From Bacteroidota bacterium (GTDB taxonomy: Bacteria > Bacteroidota > Bacteroidia > Bacteroidales > Lentimicrobiaceae), in the NCBI GenBank assembly GCA_009773515.1, contig WSXX01000008.1:62001-126000 (forward strand): a stretch of 64,000 nt of DNA, read 5' to 3'. Within the stretch, counting starts at the first letter, position 1. The number at the start of each line of letters is the position of its first letter. Of this stretch, positions 8,598 to 54,872 are shown in pieces. Under the pieces are notes generated by a model that saw nothing but the letters and a program-made list of their open reading frames with translations, was not told the origin of the DNA and ran no database searches. The translations under genes and the position numbers were made by a program.

Positions 8598-8621
8598 TTT
8601 TAGGTATGAATCAACAAAAAT

Positions 8622-8774
8622 ATCACTGCTGTCCGGTAAAAATCGAAAATTTTCTTGCCACCAAAACTCCAAAGCTCCAAATTACACAAAATGAATGAAT
8701 TAGATTGGTGACTTTTGGTGATTTAGTGCTTTGGTGGCAGATTTAAAAAAGTAAGTTACCGTTCTATAACTTTT
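8622..8774 (-). repeat. Dispersed palindromic repeat, family 1, copy A (reverse)
   Basis: About 150 bp, in inverted orientation relative to copies at 22451-22601 and 41061-41213, with long identical runs. The 11-bp arm TTGCCACCAAA (8655-8665) faces a near copy of its complement, TTTGGTGGCAG, around 8730-8740. Short ORFs crossing it are not conserved between copies. Together with the groEL terminator and the 18-bp palindrome it fills the 554-bp non-coding interval 8380-8933. Confidence 0.8.
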
Positions 8775-8882
8775 TTCAAAGAGCCACAATATCAGGCATT
8801 TGGAATAGTATTCGAAACTTTCCCCGGACAACAATGCAAAAATATATGTCCGTATTAAACTGATTGCTGCTTCTGTTAAAAA

Positions 8883-20767: not shown

Positions 20768-20800
20768 TTTTCATGAATAGCTGCTGAAATCTTACCTTTG
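20768..20800 (+). promoter_or_regulatory. Promoter of the ECF sigma factor gene
   Basis: TACCTTTG (20793-20800) matches the -7 consensus, with TTTT (20768-20771) as a one-mismatch -33 element 21 bp upstream. Transcription from about 20807 supports the ATG at 20828 and argues against the in-frame TTG at 20798. Confidence 0.5.
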
Positions 20801-20827
20801 CCGGTTACCAGGAACAGGTTAAAAAAA

Positions 20828-21376
20828 ATGAAGGAAGAATCTGATGATAAACCGTTGGTAAGCAGACTCAAGCGGGGAGATAAAAAAGCTTTTGAGGAGA
20901 TTTTCCGGAAATACCGGGAAAAGGTTTACTATTTTGCCATCAGGTATTACAATTCACCCGAAGATGCCGAAAATGTGGTTCAGGATGTTTTTATTAAAAT
21001 ATGGGATGAGCGGGCAGGGCTCAAAGAAGAACTCTCCCTGAACAATTACATTTACACCATCACCAAAAACCACCTTTTCAATATTCAGCGGAAGAAGATC
21101 AACGAAAAGGCTTACCGGGAATACATAACCGGACATCTGACACAATCAACAAATCTTGAAAATGAGCTGATTTACTCCGACCTTAAAGAAAAAATCGACA
21201 AGGTAATTGATGATCTTCCGGCTCAACGCCGAAAAGTTTTTCAACTTGGAAACATTGAAGGGTTCTCAAATAAAGAGGTTGCTGCCTTACTCAGCCTTTC
21301 GGTAAGAACCATAGAAGTGCACAAAAGCCTTGCAATCAAGACGGTTAAAACTGCTCTGAAAAAAATATTAAACTGA
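20828..21376 (+). CDS. ECF-family RNA polymerase sigma factor
   Basis: A 182-aa sigma-70 family factor of the Bacteroidota ECF group that works with FecR and TonB-dependent transducers. Region 2 is seen as FEEIFRKYREKVYYFAIRYY and DAENVVQDVFIKIWD (residues about 24-70), region 4 as IDDLPAQRRKVFQLGNIEG followed by the helix-turn-helix SNKEVAALLSLSVRTIEVHK (about 125-170). Held by FecR in the resting state, it should switch on the downstream SusC/SusD genes when the STN domain signals ligand. FecR starts 51 bp downstream. Confidence 0.93.
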   Translation: MKEESDDKPLVSRLKRGDKKAFEEIFRKYREKVYYFAIRYYNSPEDAENVVQDVFIKIWDERAGLKEELSLNNYIYTITKNHLFNIQRKKINEKAYREYITGHLTQSTNLENELIYSDLKEKIDKVIDDLPAQRRKVFQLGNIEGFSNKEVAALLSLSVRTIEVHKSLAIKTVKTALKKILN

Positions 21377-21427
21377 TCGCTTAAGTAAAACACCTTCACC
21401 AGGTGTATAAAATACAGAACCAATAAA

Positions 21428-22384
21428 ATGAAAAAGAAACTTAGTCCAAATATATTTGCCCGTTTCTACGCCGGATTAATTAATCCGAAGGAAGAGCAGG
21501 AACTGATTTCATCAGAGGAGATTGATACCCTGATGAAGAAACAATGGGATAACCCGAAAGAAATGAAGTCAGCAGACCGCAAACCGGACTTCGATGCCCT
21601 GTTTCACAAAATTGACCATCATACCTCAAAACAAAAACCTTTAATAAAGCTGACCTTCCTGAAAATTGCTGCCGGTCTGGCTATATTGACAGGTTTGACT
21701 GCAGTGCTTTACTTTGCATTCAATCAAACAATTTCCCCCGCACAAATGCAGGTAACTTCTGCGAAAGGACAAGTTGTTGATTTTACCTTGCCCGATGGTT
21801 CCAAAGTATGGCTGACAGGCGAAAGCAGCATCACTTATGAGAAAACATTCGTTAAAAACCGTTTGGTTGATCTTCAGGGACATGCATATTTTGATGTAAT
21901 AAACAACAACACTCCATTTAAGATTCTTACCGGCGATATAGATGTTGAGGTTACCGGAACATCTTTCAGCGTGATGAATTTTTCAGGTTCATCTGAAGCT
22001 GAAGTCATTCTGGTTGAAGGAAGTGTAAATGTTTCAGGAACTCAGAATAATCTGATTGCCGGAATGATTCCTAACGAAAAGCTGATCTTTAACAAAACCA
22101 GTGGACTTTTCATTATTGAAAAAGTCAATGCCAAAGAGCTCACGCTTTGGAAAGAAGAAAAACTATACTTCAGCAACACTCCTTTACCTGAAATTGCAAT
22201 AGCCCTGAACCAGCGCTATGGAAAATCATTCAGGGTTGAAAATAATGCAGCAACATACAATTTCACTTTCAGCCTTTCAGGAGAGACCTTAAAGGAAACC
22301 TTGGAACTGATCATAACCCTGGCACCTGTTACCTACAGAATTGAAGGTGAAACCATTGTATTTGAAAAAGCGGAATTAAAGTAA
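21428..22384 (+). CDS. FecR-family anti-sigma / sigma regulator
   Basis: A 318-aa inner-membrane protein: a cytoplasmic N-terminus (residues 1-70) expected to bind the ECF factor, one transmembrane helix (about 75-95, FLKIAAGLAILTGLTAVLYF), and a periplasmic FecR domain whose first block is VTSAKGQVVDFTLPDGSKVWL and continues with YFDVINNNTPFKI and VTGTSFSV. The C-terminal domain (about 240-318, LPEIAIALNQRYGKSF) is the usual FecR_C/DUF4974. It relays the signal from the STN domain of the SusC at 22693. Gene order sigma, FecR, STN-SusC, SusD is the standard arrangement. Confidence 0.92.
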   Translation: MKKKLSPNIFARFYAGLINPKEEQELISSEEIDTLMKKQWDNPKEMKSADRKPDFDALFHKIDHHTSKQKPLIKLTFLKIAAGLAILTGLTAVLYFAFNQTISPAQMQVTSAKGQVVDFTLPDGSKVWLTGESSITYEKTFVKNRLVDLQGHAYFDVINNNTPFKILTGDIDVEVTGTSFSVMNFSGSSEAEVILVEGSVNVSGTQNNLIAGMIPNEKLIFNKTSGLFIIEKVNAKELTLWKEEKLYFSNTPLPEIAIALNQRYGKSFRVENNAATYNFTFSLSGETLKETLELIITLAPVTYRIEGETIVFEKAELK

Positions 22385-22450
22385 GATCCATTTTATCTCT
22401 TCGTCAGGTTGTCAGTTTGCTGATGCACTTGTTTCTCCATCCCATAATCA

Positions 22451-22601
22451 AAAGTTGTATAACAGTACCTTACTTTATTAAAATTGCCACCAAAGCACTA
22501 AAACACCAAAAATCACCAATTTAATACATTCATTTTGTGTAATTTGGAGTCTTGGAGATTTGGTGGCAAGAATTTTTTGATTTTTGCCGGACAATAGTGT
22601 T
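22451..22601 (+). repeat. Dispersed palindromic repeat, family 1, copy B
   Basis: Lies between FecR and the STN-SusC gene. Perfect 11-bp inner arms TTGCCACCAAA (22484-22494)/TTTGGTGGCAA (22559-22569) flank a 64-bp centre that holds ATTCATTTTGTGTAATTTGG, shared with both other copies; the outer flank GGACAATAGTGTT is shared with copy C. The 308-bp interval 22385-22692 also has a CATGTT/AACATG hairpin (22618-22633) before a T run, too short to call a terminator. Confidence 0.8.
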
Positions 22602-22692
22602 ATTCAACATAAATTTTCATGTTTTATAACATGTATTATTTTTTTTGAAAAACTGGCTTATCTTTAGAGGCTAAACCGGAATAAAATTTAAG

Positions 22693-25600
22693 GTGATTTA
22701 CAGCAGAGACAACTGTTTGCTTTATCTGTCAATAAAACAATTGCAAAGCTTTATGCTTCTGCTTTTGCTTATCCTTTCCTCTGTAACTTATGCCCAGCAA
22801 ACCGAAAGATACAACCTCAGGTTTGAAAACAGACCACTTAAAGAAGTTCTAAGCGAAATCACAATTCTTACCGGTTATGAATTTGCCTATAGCGATACTG
22901 AGGTTCGGAGCAGCCGTAAAATATCTGTATCGGCAAGACAAAAAACAGCGGAGGAACTTATACTTAATGTGGCTGGCAATGCAGGTCTGGAGGCACTGTT
23001 TACAGAAAAAAAAGTCATCCTCAAACTGCTAAATGACAAACATTTCTATATAATCAATGGCATTGTAACTGAAGCGTTAAATGATTTGCCCATTCCCGGG
23101 GCACATGTTTTTATTACCTGCAAAACCAGTGGAACCTTTACCGATGAAGAAGGCCGATATAGCCTTAAAGTACCGAAGGATTGCAATACTGTCAGGTTTT
23201 CATGTATGGGTTTTACTGAACAGGAACAGATCATCAGGACAGATACACTGCTTAATGTCAGGCTTCAGGCAGATATTAAAACTTTGAGCGAAACAGTTGT
23301 TGTTGCTTTTGGCGAAGAGCCGGAAGACCTTTTAACCGGAGCAGTTTCATTTTTGAGAATGGACCTTTACGATCAGACCAACTCCTCATCCTTAAATGCA
23401 GCAATGCAATCTGAGATTTCGGGTTTGCTGATTCAGGCTAATGGAGGCACCCCTGCTTCAGGTTTTAACATCAACATTCGTGGAATAAGTTCGATCAATG
23501 CCGGCAACCGCCCACTTTTTGTCGTTGACGGCATCCCCATTATAACAGGAGATTATTCACAGCTCGATTTCAGCGGACAATCCATTGACGCCATCAGCGA
23601 TCTGAGCATTAACGATATAGAATCCATATCAGTATTAAAAGATGCTGCGGCAAGTTCTTTGTTTGGTTCCAACTCATCAAACGGCGTTATTCTAATAAAT
23701 ACAAAGCGCGGTGTTTCGGGCCGAAACAGGATTGACTTATACAGCTATTTCGGACTTCAACAAACCGTCGGCAGGCTTGATATGCTTGATTCAAGGCAAT
23801 GGATGAACCTGATGAACGAACAAGCTTTGGCTGAGGGCAGAACTCCTGAATACAGTCAGGAAACCATTCAAAACTATTCAATCAATACAGACTGGCAGCA
23901 GGAAGTATTCCGGACTGCGCCAACCCGCGATATCGGGCTTTCGCTCAGCGGTGGAAACGACAAATCGCAACATTACATCAGTGGTAACTTTTTCGATCAG
24001 GAAGGTATCATAATAGGCTCAGACTTTAAGCGCTATAATCTGAGAATGAATTACGATTACAAGATTAGCGACAAGCTGAAAATTGAATCAGGAAACAGCT
24101 TTGCCTACTCTGTAAATAACCGCGTTGAGGGCGATCAGACCCTTAACGGACCTTTGCCCAATGCTATATCGCTGGCACCTGTATTTCCTGTTTACAACAG
24201 TGATGGAAGTTTCAATAACGATGGATCATATGCCAATCCGGTTGCAATAGCAACGCTTGAAAAAAACCTGACCTATACCTACCGGAACACCTTTCATTTC
24301 AAGGCCAACTACGCCCTGGCAGACAATTTTACGCTACGAAGCCTGACAGGACTGGATTTCTACAACCTCCGCGAGCAGGCATTTGCACCTAAAACAACCC
24401 GACAAGGAGCCAAGTACAACGGATTGGGCATTGAAGCAACCAGCAATGCACTCAGGTTTTACCACACCACTTACCTTGATTATTCGTTGGTTCGATCGCT
24501 CAACCGGCTATCAGTTACAGCAGGTTTAAGCCTTGAGAGCAACCGCCAGCACGATACTTTTTTACGTGCTCAGAACTTTGCAGGTACCAGTTTTGAATTT
24601 CTTCAGGATGCGGCAACTCCGGTTTCCACGCAATCCTATGAAACCGAAGCTAATGCCAACTCACTCTTTTCGCGTATTCAGTATGGTTATGATGAACGAT
24701 ACATTTTTACTTTGAATCTGCGACGCGATGGTTCATCAAAATTTGGCAAGAACAATCGTTTCGGATTATTCCCTTCAGTCTCAGGATTATGGTATGCTTC
24801 GAAGGAGGAGTTCTTCAAAGTCAGCGCAATTTCCAGACTTATACTATCGGTCAGCTATGGCATTACGGGCAACGATCAGATCGGCGACTTTTTATCGCTT
24901 GATCTTTATTCAGCCGGCAATAATTATGGCGGCGATGGGGGTATAAGTCCTTCTCAGCTGGCCAATCCAAATCTGCGCTGGGAATCGACCAGCCATTTTA
25001 ATCTGGGTACACAGATCGAATTATATAGCAAAATCAACATCAGAGCAGATTACTACAACAAGCAAACCAAAGACCTTCTGCTTCAAAAACCAATGCCAAC
25101 ATCCACCGGGCATGCTTTCATCATGTCGAACATTGGTAAAATTGAGAATCAAGGAGTTGAAATCTCTGCAATCATTCCCATTATCGAAGGGCCTTTCAGA
25201 TGGGATGCAATGCTGAATTTTACAAGCAACCGCAACAAAGTACTTGAACTTTATGAAGATCAACCAATTCGTAATATTGGCAGAGCAAGCAGCAGCATTG
25301 AGGTAGGCGAACCAGTATCATTTTTTTATGGATTTAATTCACTGGGGGTCAACCCTGATGATGGAAATCTGATTTACGAAGACCTCAACCGGGACGGAAA
25401 AATCAATGACCTTGACCGAAAAAAGATCGGCAGTCCGCATCCGGTTTTCTATGGAGGCGTTGGAAGCAACTTATCATGGAAAAATTTTAGCTTTGATTTC
25501 AGATTTTCATTCTCATATGGCAACAGTATTTTCAATTCAACCCGCATCTACACCGAAACCATCTCACTCAGCAATCAGACAACTGCCATTTTGCGCCGCT

Positions 25601-25926
25601 GGCAAAATCCGGGCGACATAACTGATGTGCCAAAAGCTTCGGTTTATAACCAGCGGTTTTCCTCCCGTTTCGTTGAAGATGGATCTTTTCTGAGGCTGAA
25701 AAACGTCAGGTTCAGTTATGAACTTCCCGAAAAGCTAATATCCAGAGCCGGGATCAGCCGTTTAGAAGTATTCGTGGCCGGGAAAAACCTTCTGACATTT
25801 ACAAGATATTCGGGCATGGACCCGGAAATAAATTACAATGGATTGAATCCGATTGCATTGGGCACCGATTTCTTTACCTGCCCGCAACCTAAAAGTTTAA
25901 TGATTGGCCTATGCGCAAGATTCTGA
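22693..25926 (+). CDS. SusC-type TonB-dependent transducer with STN domain
   Basis: A 1077-aa outer-membrane transporter that also signals. I use the GTG at 22693, which gives a signal peptide with a charged n-region ending VTYAQQ (about residue 36); the first in-frame ATG (22753) would leave a signal without positive charge. STN domain about 38-95 (LRFENRPLKEVLSEI), carboxypeptidase-like domain about 105-185 (INGIVTEALNDLPIPGAHV), plug with VVDGIPIITGD and SVLKDAAASSLFG, then the barrel to the C-terminal aromatic strand. The STN domain and the adjacent sigma/FecR pair mark a ligand-inducible system. The SusD gene overlaps its 3' end by 16 bp. Substrate not readable. Confidence 0.9.
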   Translation: MIYSRDNCLLYLSIKQLQSFMLLLLLILSSVTYAQQTERYNLRFENRPLKEVLSEITILTGYEFAYSDTEVRSSRKISVSARQKTAEELILNVAGNAGLEALFTEKKVILKLLNDKHFYIINGIVTEALNDLPIPGAHVFITCKTSGTFTDEEGRYSLKVPKDCNTVRFSCMGFTEQEQIIRTDTLLNVRLQADIKTLSETVVVAFGEEPEDLLTGAVSFLRMDLYDQTNSSSLNAAMQSEISGLLIQANGGTPASGFNINIRGISSINAGNRPLFVVDGIPIITGDYSQLDFSGQSIDAISDLSINDIESISVLKDAAASSLFGSNSSNGVILINTKRGVSGRNRIDLYSYFGLQQTVGRLDMLDSRQWMNLMNEQALAEGRTPEYSQETIQNYSINTDWQQEVFRTAPTRDIGLSLSGGNDKSQHYISGNFFDQEGIIIGSDFKRYNLRMNYDYKISDKLKIESGNSFAYSVNNRVEGDQTLNGPLPNAISLAPVFPVYNSDGSFNNDGSYANPVAIATLEKNLTYTYRNTFHFKANYALADNFTLRSLTGLDFYNLREQAFAPKTTRQGAKYNGLGIEATSNALRFYHTTYLDYSLVRSLNRLSVTAGLSLESNRQHDTFLRAQNFAGTSFEFLQDAATPVSTQSYETEANANSLFSRIQYGYDERYIFTLNLRRDGSSKFGKNNRFGLFPSVSGLWYASKEEFFKVSAISRLILSVSYGITGNDQIGDFLSLDLYSAGNNYGGDGGISPSQLANPNLRWESTSHFNLGTQIELYSKINIRADYYNKQTKDLLLQKPMPTSTGHAFIMSNIGKIENQGVEISAIIPIIEGPFRWDAMLNFTSNRNKVLELYEDQPIRNIGRASSSIEVGEPVSFFYGFNSLGVNPDDGNLIYEDLNRDGKINDLDRKKIGSPHPVFYGGVGSNLSWKNFSFDFRFSFSYGNSIFNSTRIYTETISLSNQTTAILRRWQNPGDITDVPKASVYNQRFSSRFVEDGSFLRLKNVRFSYELPEKLISRAGISRLEVFVAGKNLLTFTRYSGMDPEINYNGLNPIALGTDFFTCPQPKSLMIGLCARF

Positions 25927-38351: not shown

Positions 38352-40835
38352 TTAGTGGATCATTAATTTTGTTACATTCAGACTGTTGTTTACCAGAGTG
38401 CGCACTACATAAACACCAGGGGCAAGGCCCGAAACATTTGCTGAAATTTTATTGACACCTGAAAAAACACTTTTGTTCAGGTTGCTGACTTCACGTCCGG
38501 TAATGTCGATGATGCTGATATTTGCAGTTCCGTTACCCTGAATGTTAAAAGTAATATTTATGCTTTCATTGGCAGGGTTAGGAAACACGGTTGCATTCAG
38601 ATTAACCAGATCATTTTCATTAATTCCGATTGTTCCTTCCACCACCTTGATGTTGTCAACTGCAAGGTTTGAACCTCCGGCAGTTGAGTTGCCCGGGGTA
38701 AGGTCGGTAGTAAGCACAAAAGCAATCCAAACATCCTGATTTAGAAAACCTTTCTCCTTCAGATTAACACTACGCTGCGAAAGACCCTGGCCTGGATTTC
38801 CAACAAATGCCGACCAGTTTTCAGGCATGATATTGGCAAGAATCAATGCATTTTCTTCAAAGTAGGGAATGTTTGGTGTTGCACCCTGAACTGCAGGAGC
38901 ACAAAGTACCATATAGTCATCGGGATAGTTACCCGAAGAAGTGGTTGACATCGCACTCCAGCTCAAGGTTGAATTTTGTCCGATGCTGATTGCAGGAAGT
39001 ATCATCCAGTCATCAGCCTTGCCTTCCAAAGGCATGTTCGAACAATATGATGAGGCCATCGCCAGCTTTGTTCCCTGAAGTTCTATGCGATTTGATGTTG
39101 TGACTAACCATGCACTGTCCTGCCACCTTTCTTCGCCGGATGCCTGAATATAACCATCATTATTTATTACAATCCAACCCGATGGCAAAGTCATCAATGT
39201 TTCAAAATCTTCATAAAACAAAGTAGTAATACCCTGCTGTTCAGTGGTAACAGTCACCACCCATACCTGAGTAGATCCATCCTGAGCTGTAACTGTATAG
39301 TTTACAGGTGCGGTAAAATTCTGAGCAACACCACTGCCGGGACTTACAGAAGCATATTCTGAAACTGCAATGGTAGGAACAAGTGCCGTAAGATCAGTTC
39401 CAAAGGGAACTTCAAGTGCAACTGTGCCAGCCGTGCTGTTTATTACTCCGTTCACCGCAGGGGTAAGGCTTTCAAACCTGAAGGAATAAATATCCTTTGC
39501 AGTGCTGGCCGGAAGTTTGGCAACTGCTACTGTCCACTCTTCGGTTGCGGAACCCTGGCTAAGGGAATAAACCAAAGGATTGGTAAAATCATTGGCCGTT
39601 GTTCCGCTTATTTGTTCAACATCACCCACTTTGGCAACAGAGCCCGGAGTTACCTCAAATGTAGCAACAAGTGCAGTTACGTCAACCTGAAAAGGAACGG
39701 AAAGATCAATTGTATTTGAAACGATGTTGATGTCGCCATTAGCAACCGGATCCAGACCCAAAAATCCATAATTCAAAAATACAGGTTTGGCAATCCAATC
39801 TTCAAAACTAAAGTTTGGAACCAGATTGGGGCTTATGCCATCACTATAAATACAATTGTCAAACCAAACAGTAGAAGCACCTGTCCAACCCGCTGCAACA
39901 TCGTGCAACCTGATGGCAATGTATGCCTTAGCTGAATTTTCCGGTGCTTCTCCGGTGATGGTTATTGATTGAAAATCAGGATTATCAAGCGAAAAATCAG
40001 ATTGAACACGATTGATGTAAATCCCATCAATGTCATGAAATAAAATTCTCACGCTGTATTCTGCTCCCGGATCATTGTCAAAAACATCAATAGAAAAATT
40101 GAAGTTTAACGAAGCAATATCAAACATATCAGAGATAAAATAAGGCGTACCAGTTTCGGTAAAAGTAATTTTAACGGAGTTACTTCCTTCGGTAACCTTG
40201 GCAGGGTTGGTTTCTTTGGCAATGGTAAGGGGCACCCAACCAGCAGGAGAATCCTCTTTCCAATGTGCAACAAATTCAGTAATTACCGGCCATTCTTCAA
40301 AACCCGGATTAGGAGCAAGATTAGGAGTTATGCCGTCGCTATAGATACATTTGTCGAGCCAGAAAGTCGACGAACCTGTCCAGCTGGCTGCTACATCCAG
40401 TGCCCTGAATGCAATAACAACTCTTGCCGAATTTTCGGGAGCTGTTCCTGAAAGAGAAATTGTCTGAAAATCGGGACTATCGAGGGTAAAGTCGGTAGAT
40501 TCGCGATTAATGTAGACGCCGTTAATGTCATGATACAGCAATCTTACATTGTACTCAGCCCCCGGATCATTGTCAAACACATCAATTGAAAATGAGAAAT
40601 CGAGCGCTGCTATATCAAAAGTATCCGAAACAAAATATGGTGTTCCGGTTTCGGTAAAAGTAATTTTTACCGACTTGCTGCCTTCAGTAACTTTGGCCGG
40701 ATCGGTCTCTTCCTCAAACACCAGAGGAGCCCAACCTGCCGGTGAGTCCTCGGACCAATGTAATGGCTGTGCTTTCAACGAAACACTTATAAGAGCCAAT
40801 GCCAATAAAACAAACGTAAAGATTCCTGATTTCAT
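38352..40835 (-). CDS. T9SS-exported multidomain adhesin-like protein with internal duplication
   Basis: With the ATG at 40835 the product is 827 aa with signal peptide MKSGIFTFVLLALALISVSL and cleavage near residue 23. Two tandem 165-aa modules (residues 26-190 and 191-355, both opening HW-EDSPAGW and carrying KITFTETGTPYF) are close copies and look like carbohydrate-binding-type beta-sandwiches. Two Ig-like modules follow (about 385-555, with a repeated WTVAV/WVVTV ending), then a cleaved-adhesin-type domain (about 560-750, DDWMILPAISIG) and a T9SS type A sorting domain (about 755-827, VFPNPANESINI). A surface binding role is likely. Longer upstream starts would hide the signal peptide. Confidence 0.82.
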   Translation of the reverse strand: MKSGIFTFVLLALALISVSLKAQPLHWSEDSPAGWAPLVFEEETDPAKVTEGSKSVKITFTETGTPYFVSDTFDIAALDFSFSIDVFDNDPGAEYNVRLLYHDINGVYINRESTDFTLDSPDFQTISLSGTAPENSARVVIAFRALDVAASWTGSSTFWLDKCIYSDGITPNLAPNPGFEEWPVITEFVAHWKEDSPAGWVPLTIAKETNPAKVTEGSNSVKITFTETGTPYFISDMFDIASLNFNFSIDVFDNDPGAEYSVRILFHDIDGIYINRVQSDFSLDNPDFQSITITGEAPENSAKAYIAIRLHDVAAGWTGASTVWFDNCIYSDGISPNLVPNFSFEDWIAKPVFLNYGFLGLDPVANGDINIVSNTIDLSVPFQVDVTALVATFEVTPGSVAKVGDVEQISGTTANDFTNPLVYSLSQGSATEEWTVAVAKLPASTAKDIYSFRFESLTPAVNGVINSTAGTVALEVPFGTDLTALVPTIAVSEYASVSPGSGVAQNFTAPVNYTVTAQDGSTQVWVVTVTTEQQGITTLFYEDFETLMTLPSGWIVINNDGYIQASGEERWQDSAWLVTTSNRIELQGTKLAMASSYCSNMPLEGKADDWMILPAISIGQNSTLSWSAMSTTSSGNYPDDYMVLCAPAVQGATPNIPYFEENALILANIMPENWSAFVGNPGQGLSQRSVNLKEKGFLNQDVWIAFVLTTDLTPGNSTAGGSNLAVDNIKVVEGTIGINENDLVNLNATVFPNPANESINITFNIQGNGTANISIIDITGREVSNLNKSVFSGVNKISANVSGLAPGVYVVRTLVNNSLNVTKLMIH
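39771..40760 (-). repeat. Intragenic 495-bp tandem duplication
   Basis: The units 40760-40266 and 40265-39771 encode the two N-terminal modules of the adhesin-like protein and are alike at the DNA level as well (roughly 75-80 percent by eye), with an exact in-frame period of 495 bp. Confidence 0.75.
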
Positions 40836-41060
40836 AAGCTGGGGTTTTAATGAGTAATTAATCTTGGTGGATTTTAAACCCCTATACACTTGTTTATTGC
40901 AATCCCCTTAATGAGTTTTGAAAAAATATCCGGGAATTCCTGAAATCAGTCAAATAACCGGTAAAACTTCGCTGTGTGTGCAAAATTTGTTTTACAAACA
41001 TTGTTGTCATGGGAAAGTTTCGAATATTATTACAAATGATTGATATTGAATTTTATAGAC

Positions 41061-41213
41061 AAAAGTTGAGGAACAATACCTTACTTTATAAAATTTGCCA
41101 CTAAAACACGAAATCACCAAATTTCACCAATTTAATTCATTCATTTTGTGTAATTTGGAGTTTTGGAGATTTGGTGGCAAGGAAATTTTTGATTTTCACC
41201 GGACAATAGTGTT
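41061..41213 (+). repeat. Dispersed palindromic repeat, family 1, copy C
   Basis: Third copy, same orientation as copy B. Arms TTGCCACTAAA and TTTGGTGGCAA (one mismatch) flank the shared centre, and the flank GGACAATAGTGTT is identical to copy B. With the pheT terminator it accounts for most of the 582-bp gap 40836-41417; the remainder shows nothing I can name. Confidence 0.8.
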
Positions 41214-54625: not shown

Positions 54626-54658
54626 TTTGCATTCCTCTTTTTTATCTTAGTACTTTTG
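54626..54658 (+). promoter_or_regulatory. Promoter of the B12 operon
   Basis: TTTG (54626-54629), 21-bp spacer, TACTTTTG (54651-54658): both elements exact. Transcription would start right at the 5' edge of the cobalamin aptamer. Confidence 0.65.
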
Positions 54659-54659
54659 C

Positions 54660-54826
54660 AGCGCAATGGTTCCGGAAACGGATAATAGGGAATGCCGTGC
54701 AATCCGGCAACAGTTCCCGCTGCTGTAAGCTCTTGAAAGGTTCAACAAAAAGCCACTGTTCATCCCAAAACGAACGGGAAGGCGTTGAAAATAAACGGAG
54801 TGAGTCAGAAGACCTGCCAATGCCTT
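54660..54826 (+). promoter_or_regulatory. Cobalamin (adenosylcobalamin-class) riboswitch
   Basis: Conserved aptamer blocks are in order: AATAGGGAATGCCGTGCAA followed by CCGGCAACAGTTCCCGCTG and CTGTAAGC, a variable arm holding GCCACTG, then GGGAAGGCG, and the closing GAGTCAGAAGACCTGCC. The ends GCAATGG (54663-54669) and CCAATGC (54818-54824) can form the P1 stem with one mismatch. These match the B12-box consensus. It sits between the promoter and a terminator, ahead of a B12 uptake operon, so bound cobalamin should shut expression off. Confidence 0.95.
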
Positions 54827-54872
54827 GTGGATTTTGTAGTTTACGGTGAATGAACTGCAAATCGGAAAGCCT

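Follow-up and report, generated by a model that had tools for sequence, protein, structure and literature searches.

The window, meaning the whole 64,000-nucleotide stretch of DNA that was analysed, holds three copies of one dispersed element, two of them intact and one truncated on the left (Table 1). The truncated copy sits in an ORF neighbourhood at 20798–25926, between what we take to be an anti-sigma-like gene on its left (21428–22384) and what is presumably a TonB-dependent receptor-like gene on its right (22693–25926), both named from the look of the sequence; its right terminal repeat is kept, its left end is lost, and no duplication was found around it. These are the three copies of the preliminary description, all of which were found again; a 42-nt right-end pattern recovered two of the three (0 expected from 100 shuffles), and two were also recovered as a direct-repeat family. 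Two further direct-repeat pairs occur in the window, at 70% and 74% identity: 39795–40094/40290–40589, which lies within one ORF (38352–40889) and looks like a duplicated protein domain, and 53391–53534/54335–54478.

Table 1. Copies of the element in the window, with their target duplications and internal hairpins
Feature	Position in window	Strand	Locus
Intact MITE copy, 213 bp, both terminal repeats	40999..41211	+	L007
9-bp target duplication TTTTACAAA, left of L007	40990..40998	.	
9-bp target duplication TTTTACAAA, right of L007	41212..41220	.	
Intact MITE copy, 213 bp	8624..8836	-	L014
9-bp target duplication of L014, CAAAAATAT on + strand	8837..8845	.	
9-bp target duplication of L014, CAAAAATAT on + strand	8615..8623	.	
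Left-truncated MITE copy (22451-22601 in the preliminary description)	about 22449..22599	+	
Internal 82-nt hairpin, four imperfect CnCnAA words per arm	41097..41178	+	
Internal 82-nt hairpin	8657..8738	-	
Internal 82-nt hairpin	22486..22567	+	

The outline of the element was redrawn from an alignment of 30 loci with their flanks, in which similarity extends leftward past the arms noted earlier and has abrupt limits, CATTGTTGTCCGGGGAAA at one end and TTTCACCGGACAATAGTG at the opposite end. Intact copies measure 213 bp and carry 18-bp terminal inverted repeats, CATTGTTGTCCGGGGAAA ... TTTCACCGGACAATAGTG, which read CATTGTTGTCCGG..AAA / TTT..CCGGACAATAGTG. The repeat of ~150 bp described before is real, but its outline was short, missing ~60 bp on the left; the 11-bp arms assigned to it, TTGCCACCAAA/TTTGGTGGCAA, form the base of the internal 82-nt hairpin, and GGACAATAGTG, to which conservation was seen to extend beyond them, is part of the true terminal repeat. 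Two-ended copies are 212–213 bp long, or 227–229 bp with a palindrome insert and 237 bp with a different palindrome, and internally deleted two-ended copies span 152–183 bp. The absence of a conserved ORF was borne out: the longest ATG frame in the 12 copies checked has 5–31 codons, leaving no coding capacity.

The hairpin at the centre of the element is a genuine inverted repeat, with 77% of positions paired as against 38–46% when the arms are slid. Among the 13 hairpins of exactly 82 nt on which pairs were counted, out of 23 collected, 18 of 34 pairs are invariant and follow the pattern of CnCnAA words, and other positions mismatch freely.

Copy number, target duplications and distribution

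A repeat search of the own genome, 67 contigs totalling 5.03 Mb, produced 65 rows, among them at least 32 strong places (E < 1e-29), a lower bound because 40 of 70 candidates were scored. The remaining rows comprise fragments, weak relatives that match in the hairpin only, and hits to the same hairpins on the opposite strand. One extra full-length copy, diverged to 62.7% identity (L095), brings the total to at least 33. The element is thus far from confined to the three copies of the window; the extrapolation to hundreds per genome likewise gave way to at least 32 strong places plus the diverged one, the 64-kb window being locally dense. Four loci in which the core of the end is present (L094, L096–L098) gave no BLAST match to the MITE consensus.

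Target-site duplications, which the preliminary description proposed to look for, are 9 bp long. With ends placed automatically and flanking 9-mers compared, 19 of 34 rows show an exact duplication and 25 show one with no more than a single mismatch, compared with 2 and 7, respectively, among 1122 left/right cross-pairs between copies. The 34 rows include copies with missing or misplaced ends (L001, L002, L010, L012, L027 and L106), none of which was dropped, as well as L104, which is the same damaged locus as L027; L100–L102, identical to earlier rows, had been removed beforehand. At L010, a copy seems to lie next to the end of a second one.

Insertion sites are AT-rich. All but one of 25 two-ended copies are intergenic (nine rows left out: L001, L002, L010, L012, L027, L106, L104, L107 and L095), so that the element does not prove to be part of an unannotated gene; the exception is L008, at an ORF of 495 codons. 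By comparison, points drawn at random within these loci fall inside ORFs of at least 120 codons in 78% of cases. One copy of the own genome lies next to groEL. Among the groEL loci of relatives (12 from the same genus and one from the same order), 11 of 13 keep the next ORF, with no MITE ends at up to 3 mismatches in between; the next ORF was not found in L259 and L270.

When 22 copies of 205–240 bp were compared, they fell into three groups with a mean within-group identity of 0.89–0.92. Beyond the own genome, the search of relatives that had been suggested earlier located the element in at least seven other members of the genus; overall, a match was present in 16 of 99 genomes surveyed, own included, scoring being capped at 8 candidates in each. 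Eleven two-ended MITEs were collected from seven same-genus genomes (G001, G004, G005, G010, G012, G013 and G017), seven of them 211–214 bp long and four 233–239 bp with an insert, each with a central imperfect hairpin of 82–83 nt, or 102–108 nt with an insert. Exact 9-bp duplications flank 8 of the 11, a number that rises to 10 if one mismatch is allowed. A pair among these copies (L118 and L121) carry an identical duplication and may represent one ancestral insertion.

IS4-family elements with matching ends

Among 25 genomes searched, insertion sequences with ends of the MITE type came to light in a genus-mate and in a genome of the same order. The one from the same genus (L150, in G012) is 1400 bp long, with the end CACTGTTGTCCGGTAAAA present twice, two mismatches from the MITE end, and the duplication ATTGAATAT; G012 also bears the MITE itself, in two copies with exact duplications (L116 and L130). 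The 399-aa protein of L150 matches the IS4 model NF033592 at 207 bits (cut-off 115) and PF01609 (DDE_Tnp_1), and the YREK motif of the IS4 family, Y-x2-R-x3-E-x6-K, can be read from its sequence. The second element, in the same-order genome G022, has ends CATTGTTGTCCGGTAAAC / CATTAGTGTCCGGTAAAA and the duplication ATTTGGGTT. The two transposases share 45% identity, score 207 and 199 bits with NF033592, and match PF01609 and PF14294. L148, like L150, has MITE-type ends with a 9-bp duplication. By eye, the MITE and L150 agree in the terminal repeat only.

A wider scan of species genomes yielded 52 loci, mostly Bacteroidota by title, of which 33 were examined for ends. Fourteen have an exact 9-bp duplication and ends that differ from the MITE end at no more than 4 positions, in a search that takes the pair with the fewest mismatches and was run without a shuffled control; they comprise L192 (the place of L150 again), all six listed loci of Draconibacterium orientale, and seven others. 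Ten have both ends without any duplication of 6–13 bp (L194, L197, L200, L201, L205, L207, L217, L219, L223 and L225), and the 9-bp duplication is therefore not universal among these relatives. The search gave no credible ends at the remaining nine, some of which are on contigs that break off early.

In the own genome, a relict of 40 aa resembles an IS4 transposase (48% identity, a weak match at E 0.004) and sits 33 bp from a MITE-type end, CAATGTTGTCCGGCAAAA (L320, 1500–1675). An intact partner was not found in this genome, a draft that is 97.2% complete and could hide one. Its single full DDE_Tnp_1 gene (L142) is ruled out as the partner, with ends that differ from those of the MITE and read ACTAGTGATGCGTTAA. 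Viral contigs gave one distant transposase only (31% identity) and zero matches to the left-end pattern of the MITE. Two kinds of gene were also considered and rejected as movers of the 213-bp unit: GxxExxY genes, whose flanks share only hairpin arms with it (L031 and L032), and IVP genes, whose flanks are other word arrays.

As tabulated in the available part of its description, the IS4Sa subgroup has ends of the form CA------T, duplications of 8–10 bp, a size of 1150–1750 bp and the YREK motif (PMC2266710). L150 resembles it in beginning with CA, with T at position 9, in its 9-bp duplication, its size of 1400 bp, within that range, and YREK; on these tabulated traits, rather than by a tree, it fits the subgroup. 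The duplication is 9 bp in L150, L148 and 14 of the 33 examined loci, and none is seen in the 10 loci that have ends without it. The element studied here differs from the tabulated subgroup (PMC2266710) in being 213 bp long and lacking a transposase, and 10 relatives have no duplication.

Probable mobilisation in trans and alternative explanations

The element is an IS4 (IS4Sa-like) MITE, ordinary in kind. It is short and non-coding, with terminal inverted repeats, target duplications and copies dispersed through intergenic DNA, and it shares its ends with the autonomous elements L150 and L148 and with relatives in the phylum, the own genome contributing a relict only. We consider it very probable that this non-autonomous MITE was moved in trans by an IS4-family DDE transposase into AT-rich intergenic DNA, because the IS4 elements of relatives share its ends and the own genome keeps a relict; an IS4Sa-like transposase is the most likely mover. 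The reading draws on what the DNA itself displays, namely the ends, duplications, copy number and intergenic placement, the relict beside such an end, and IS4-family elements of the same genus and phylum that agree with it in ends and duplication length. In the proposed mechanism, an IS4-family DDE transposase supplied by another element would bind the 18-bp terminal repeats and insert the 213-bp element into AT-rich intergenic DNA, producing 9-bp target duplications; such mobilisation in trans would presumably proceed by cut-and-paste. The inner 82-nt hairpin would be a passenger, unnecessary for explaining transposition. As no intact partner was found, we infer that movement has stopped or become rare in the own genome.

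Comparable arrangements are BrickBuilt and MITEPgRS of Porphyromonas gingivalis, which are likewise MITEs with an internal repeat as passenger, at ~10–20 copies per genome (PMC4596501). In the available part of that account, they differ in having IS5-type ends and internal tandem repeats of 23 or 41 bp, where the present element has a hairpin; BrickBuilt keeps both ends in only 4 of 19 copies, and its duplications vary in length (PMC4596501).

The preliminary description had left open whether the repeat was a MITE, a REP-type element or a structured RNA. That the host keeps it as a structured RNA or a regulatory element strikes us as highly unlikely. The plus strand of 40999–41211 does fold better than its shuffles (z = –4.6, with –1.1 for the minus strand), and in 13 of 17 whole elements it is the plus strand that has the greater stability; however, these 17 are of common descent, and a strand bias among them does not amount to 17 observations. 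Plus-strand stability is therefore not read as RNA evidence. Moreover, the hairpins alone fold on both strands, and covarying base pairs, sought in the 13 hairpins of 82 nt, did not rise above shuffles (pairing 77.4% versus 78.1%; covariation 0.087 versus 0.084). The insertion beside groEL is missing from relatives, and an Rfam search of the window returned no family at the place of the MITE; its sole match in the window is a cobalamin riboswitch at 54650–54835 (112.8 bits). Still less credible is mobilisation of a REP-type palindrome by a single-strand transposase of the RAYT (TnpA-REP) type; in its favour one might cite seven Y1_Tnp matches in the own genome and the palindromic hairpin inside the element. 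REP elements resemble it as palindromic repeats in many copies, but are 20–40 bp long in the part of the literature account available, whereas the element has IS-type terminal repeats and duplications (PMC3733652). Nor does it lie beside or match a RAYT gene: the seven Y1_Tnp loci, each with ~1.5 kb of flank, contain zero exact copies of TTGTCCGG, and 5 of the 6 scored (L049 not among them) are flanked by inverted repeats of other sequence. The ends, the 9-bp duplications and these flanks together refute a RAYT/REP origin of the 213-bp unit. Among the RAYT-like Y1_Tnp genes, L044–L048 have flanking inverted palindromes, e.g. GGGCTTTAGCCC (L044) and CCCTGAAAGGGC (L045 and L046).

A further alternative, which we regard as improbable if less so than these two, is that the inner hairpin is the mobile unit and the IS4-like shell merely one of its hosts. 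In its favour, a second shell, ending in TTGAGTCCACTCCGAA / GCTC, contains a similar hairpin; L110 and L103 have one with neither shell, and at L031 such a hairpin supplies the arms on both sides of a GxxExxY gene. Against this, it is the shell whose ends carry duplications, and the 11 MITEs compared from other genus members all keep hairpin and shell co-linear. The three-way guess is settled in favour of a MITE family of IS4 type, of which one lineage has at least 33 copies. Its outline is now exact, its duplication length is known and a partner transposase is named, which makes trans-mobilisation testable.

The hairpin in other settings and nested small palindromes

The second MITE-like family measures 145–168 bp, with ends TTGAGTCCACTCCGAA / GGAGCAAGCTC (L105, L108, L109, L111 and L085); with boundaries chosen by eye, exact 4-bp duplications flank 3 of 5 copies. 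GxxExxY (PF13366) genes lie between hairpin arms of CACCAAA or CACTAAG type at two loci (L031 1200–2150 and L032 1200–2150), and a third such gene (L033) has no hairpin arms. The own genome also has 11 matches to 23S-IVP (PF05635) genes. Most of the nine IVP loci scored (L034–L042) are flanked by inverted arrays of locus-specific short words, such as AATTTCT (L042), AGGGACG (L040) and AAGGTT (L034). The rule is not general, with no inverted flanks at L033 and L039 and weak ones at L041, and its control is unclean because equally high scores come from the insertion sequence L142 and from the RAYT loci; some cross-locus pairs are high too. The intervening sequences of 23S rRNA with the S23 protein, where inverted-repeat arms surround a small ORF, resemble some of the IVP loci; in the available part of their description, the resemblance is confined to those loci and does not extend to the MITE (PMC4990558).

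The hairpins in turn contain smaller repeats. An 18-bp palindrome, TCCCGATAGCTATCGGGA, has 12 copies in the own genome (L081–L092), and its reversed control has 0. Eight lie in this MITE (six at one left-arm site and two at a right-arm site), where the palindrome substitutes for the 3-nt AAT spacer between words; three lie in other CnCnAA-type hairpins, which makes 11 of the 12 in hairpins of this type, and one in a CTAATTTC word array. A search of 60 genomes, the own one among them, found the palindrome in 15, with 0–25 copies per genome. Out of all sites located, a subset of 66 distinct ones was read, 12 from the own genome and 54 from relatives (L244–L317). At least two CACnA words occur in the flanks of 11 of the 12 own sites, 15 of the 54 relatives' sites and 64 of 1000 random positions. 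In repeated 5-mers, the flanks surpass 95% of shuffles at 9 of 12, 16 of 54 and ~5% of these, in the same order. These counts indicate a strong preference for word hairpins in the own genome and a moderate one elsewhere, most sites of relatives lying outside CACnA-type words. The MITE copies that carry the palindrome may descend from one another, and the 12 sites are thus not 12 independent events.

One possible, although on balance doubtful, reading of these layers is a nested hierarchy of mobile DNA, in which hairpins built of repeated words (four ~9-nt CnCnAA words per arm here, other words elsewhere) would circulate between unrelated MITE shells, carry genes (GxxExxY between arms, or IVP with other words) and attract palindromes of 18–26 bp. 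The smallest parasite would then target a hairpin that is itself inside a larger mobile shell. This layer of hairpin and palindrome, the part that a specialist might not expect, is presented as description and no more. We came across no account of the MITE, the palindrome or the nesting in the literature covered, a weak indication given that subscription journals lay mostly outside it. Each of the two arm sites of TCCCGATAGCTATCGGGA appears in two sequence groups of the MITE (L020 versus L021, L024, L026 and L028; L019 versus L023), the palindrome of L021 having one changed base. Other small palindromes are present in the same MITE arms, of the CACTTCGGCAGGCTCAGTGCATCG type in L025, L134 and L135, and as CCTGTCTGCCGACAGGCAG in L114 and CCTGCCTGTTTGCACAGGCAGACAGG in L125.
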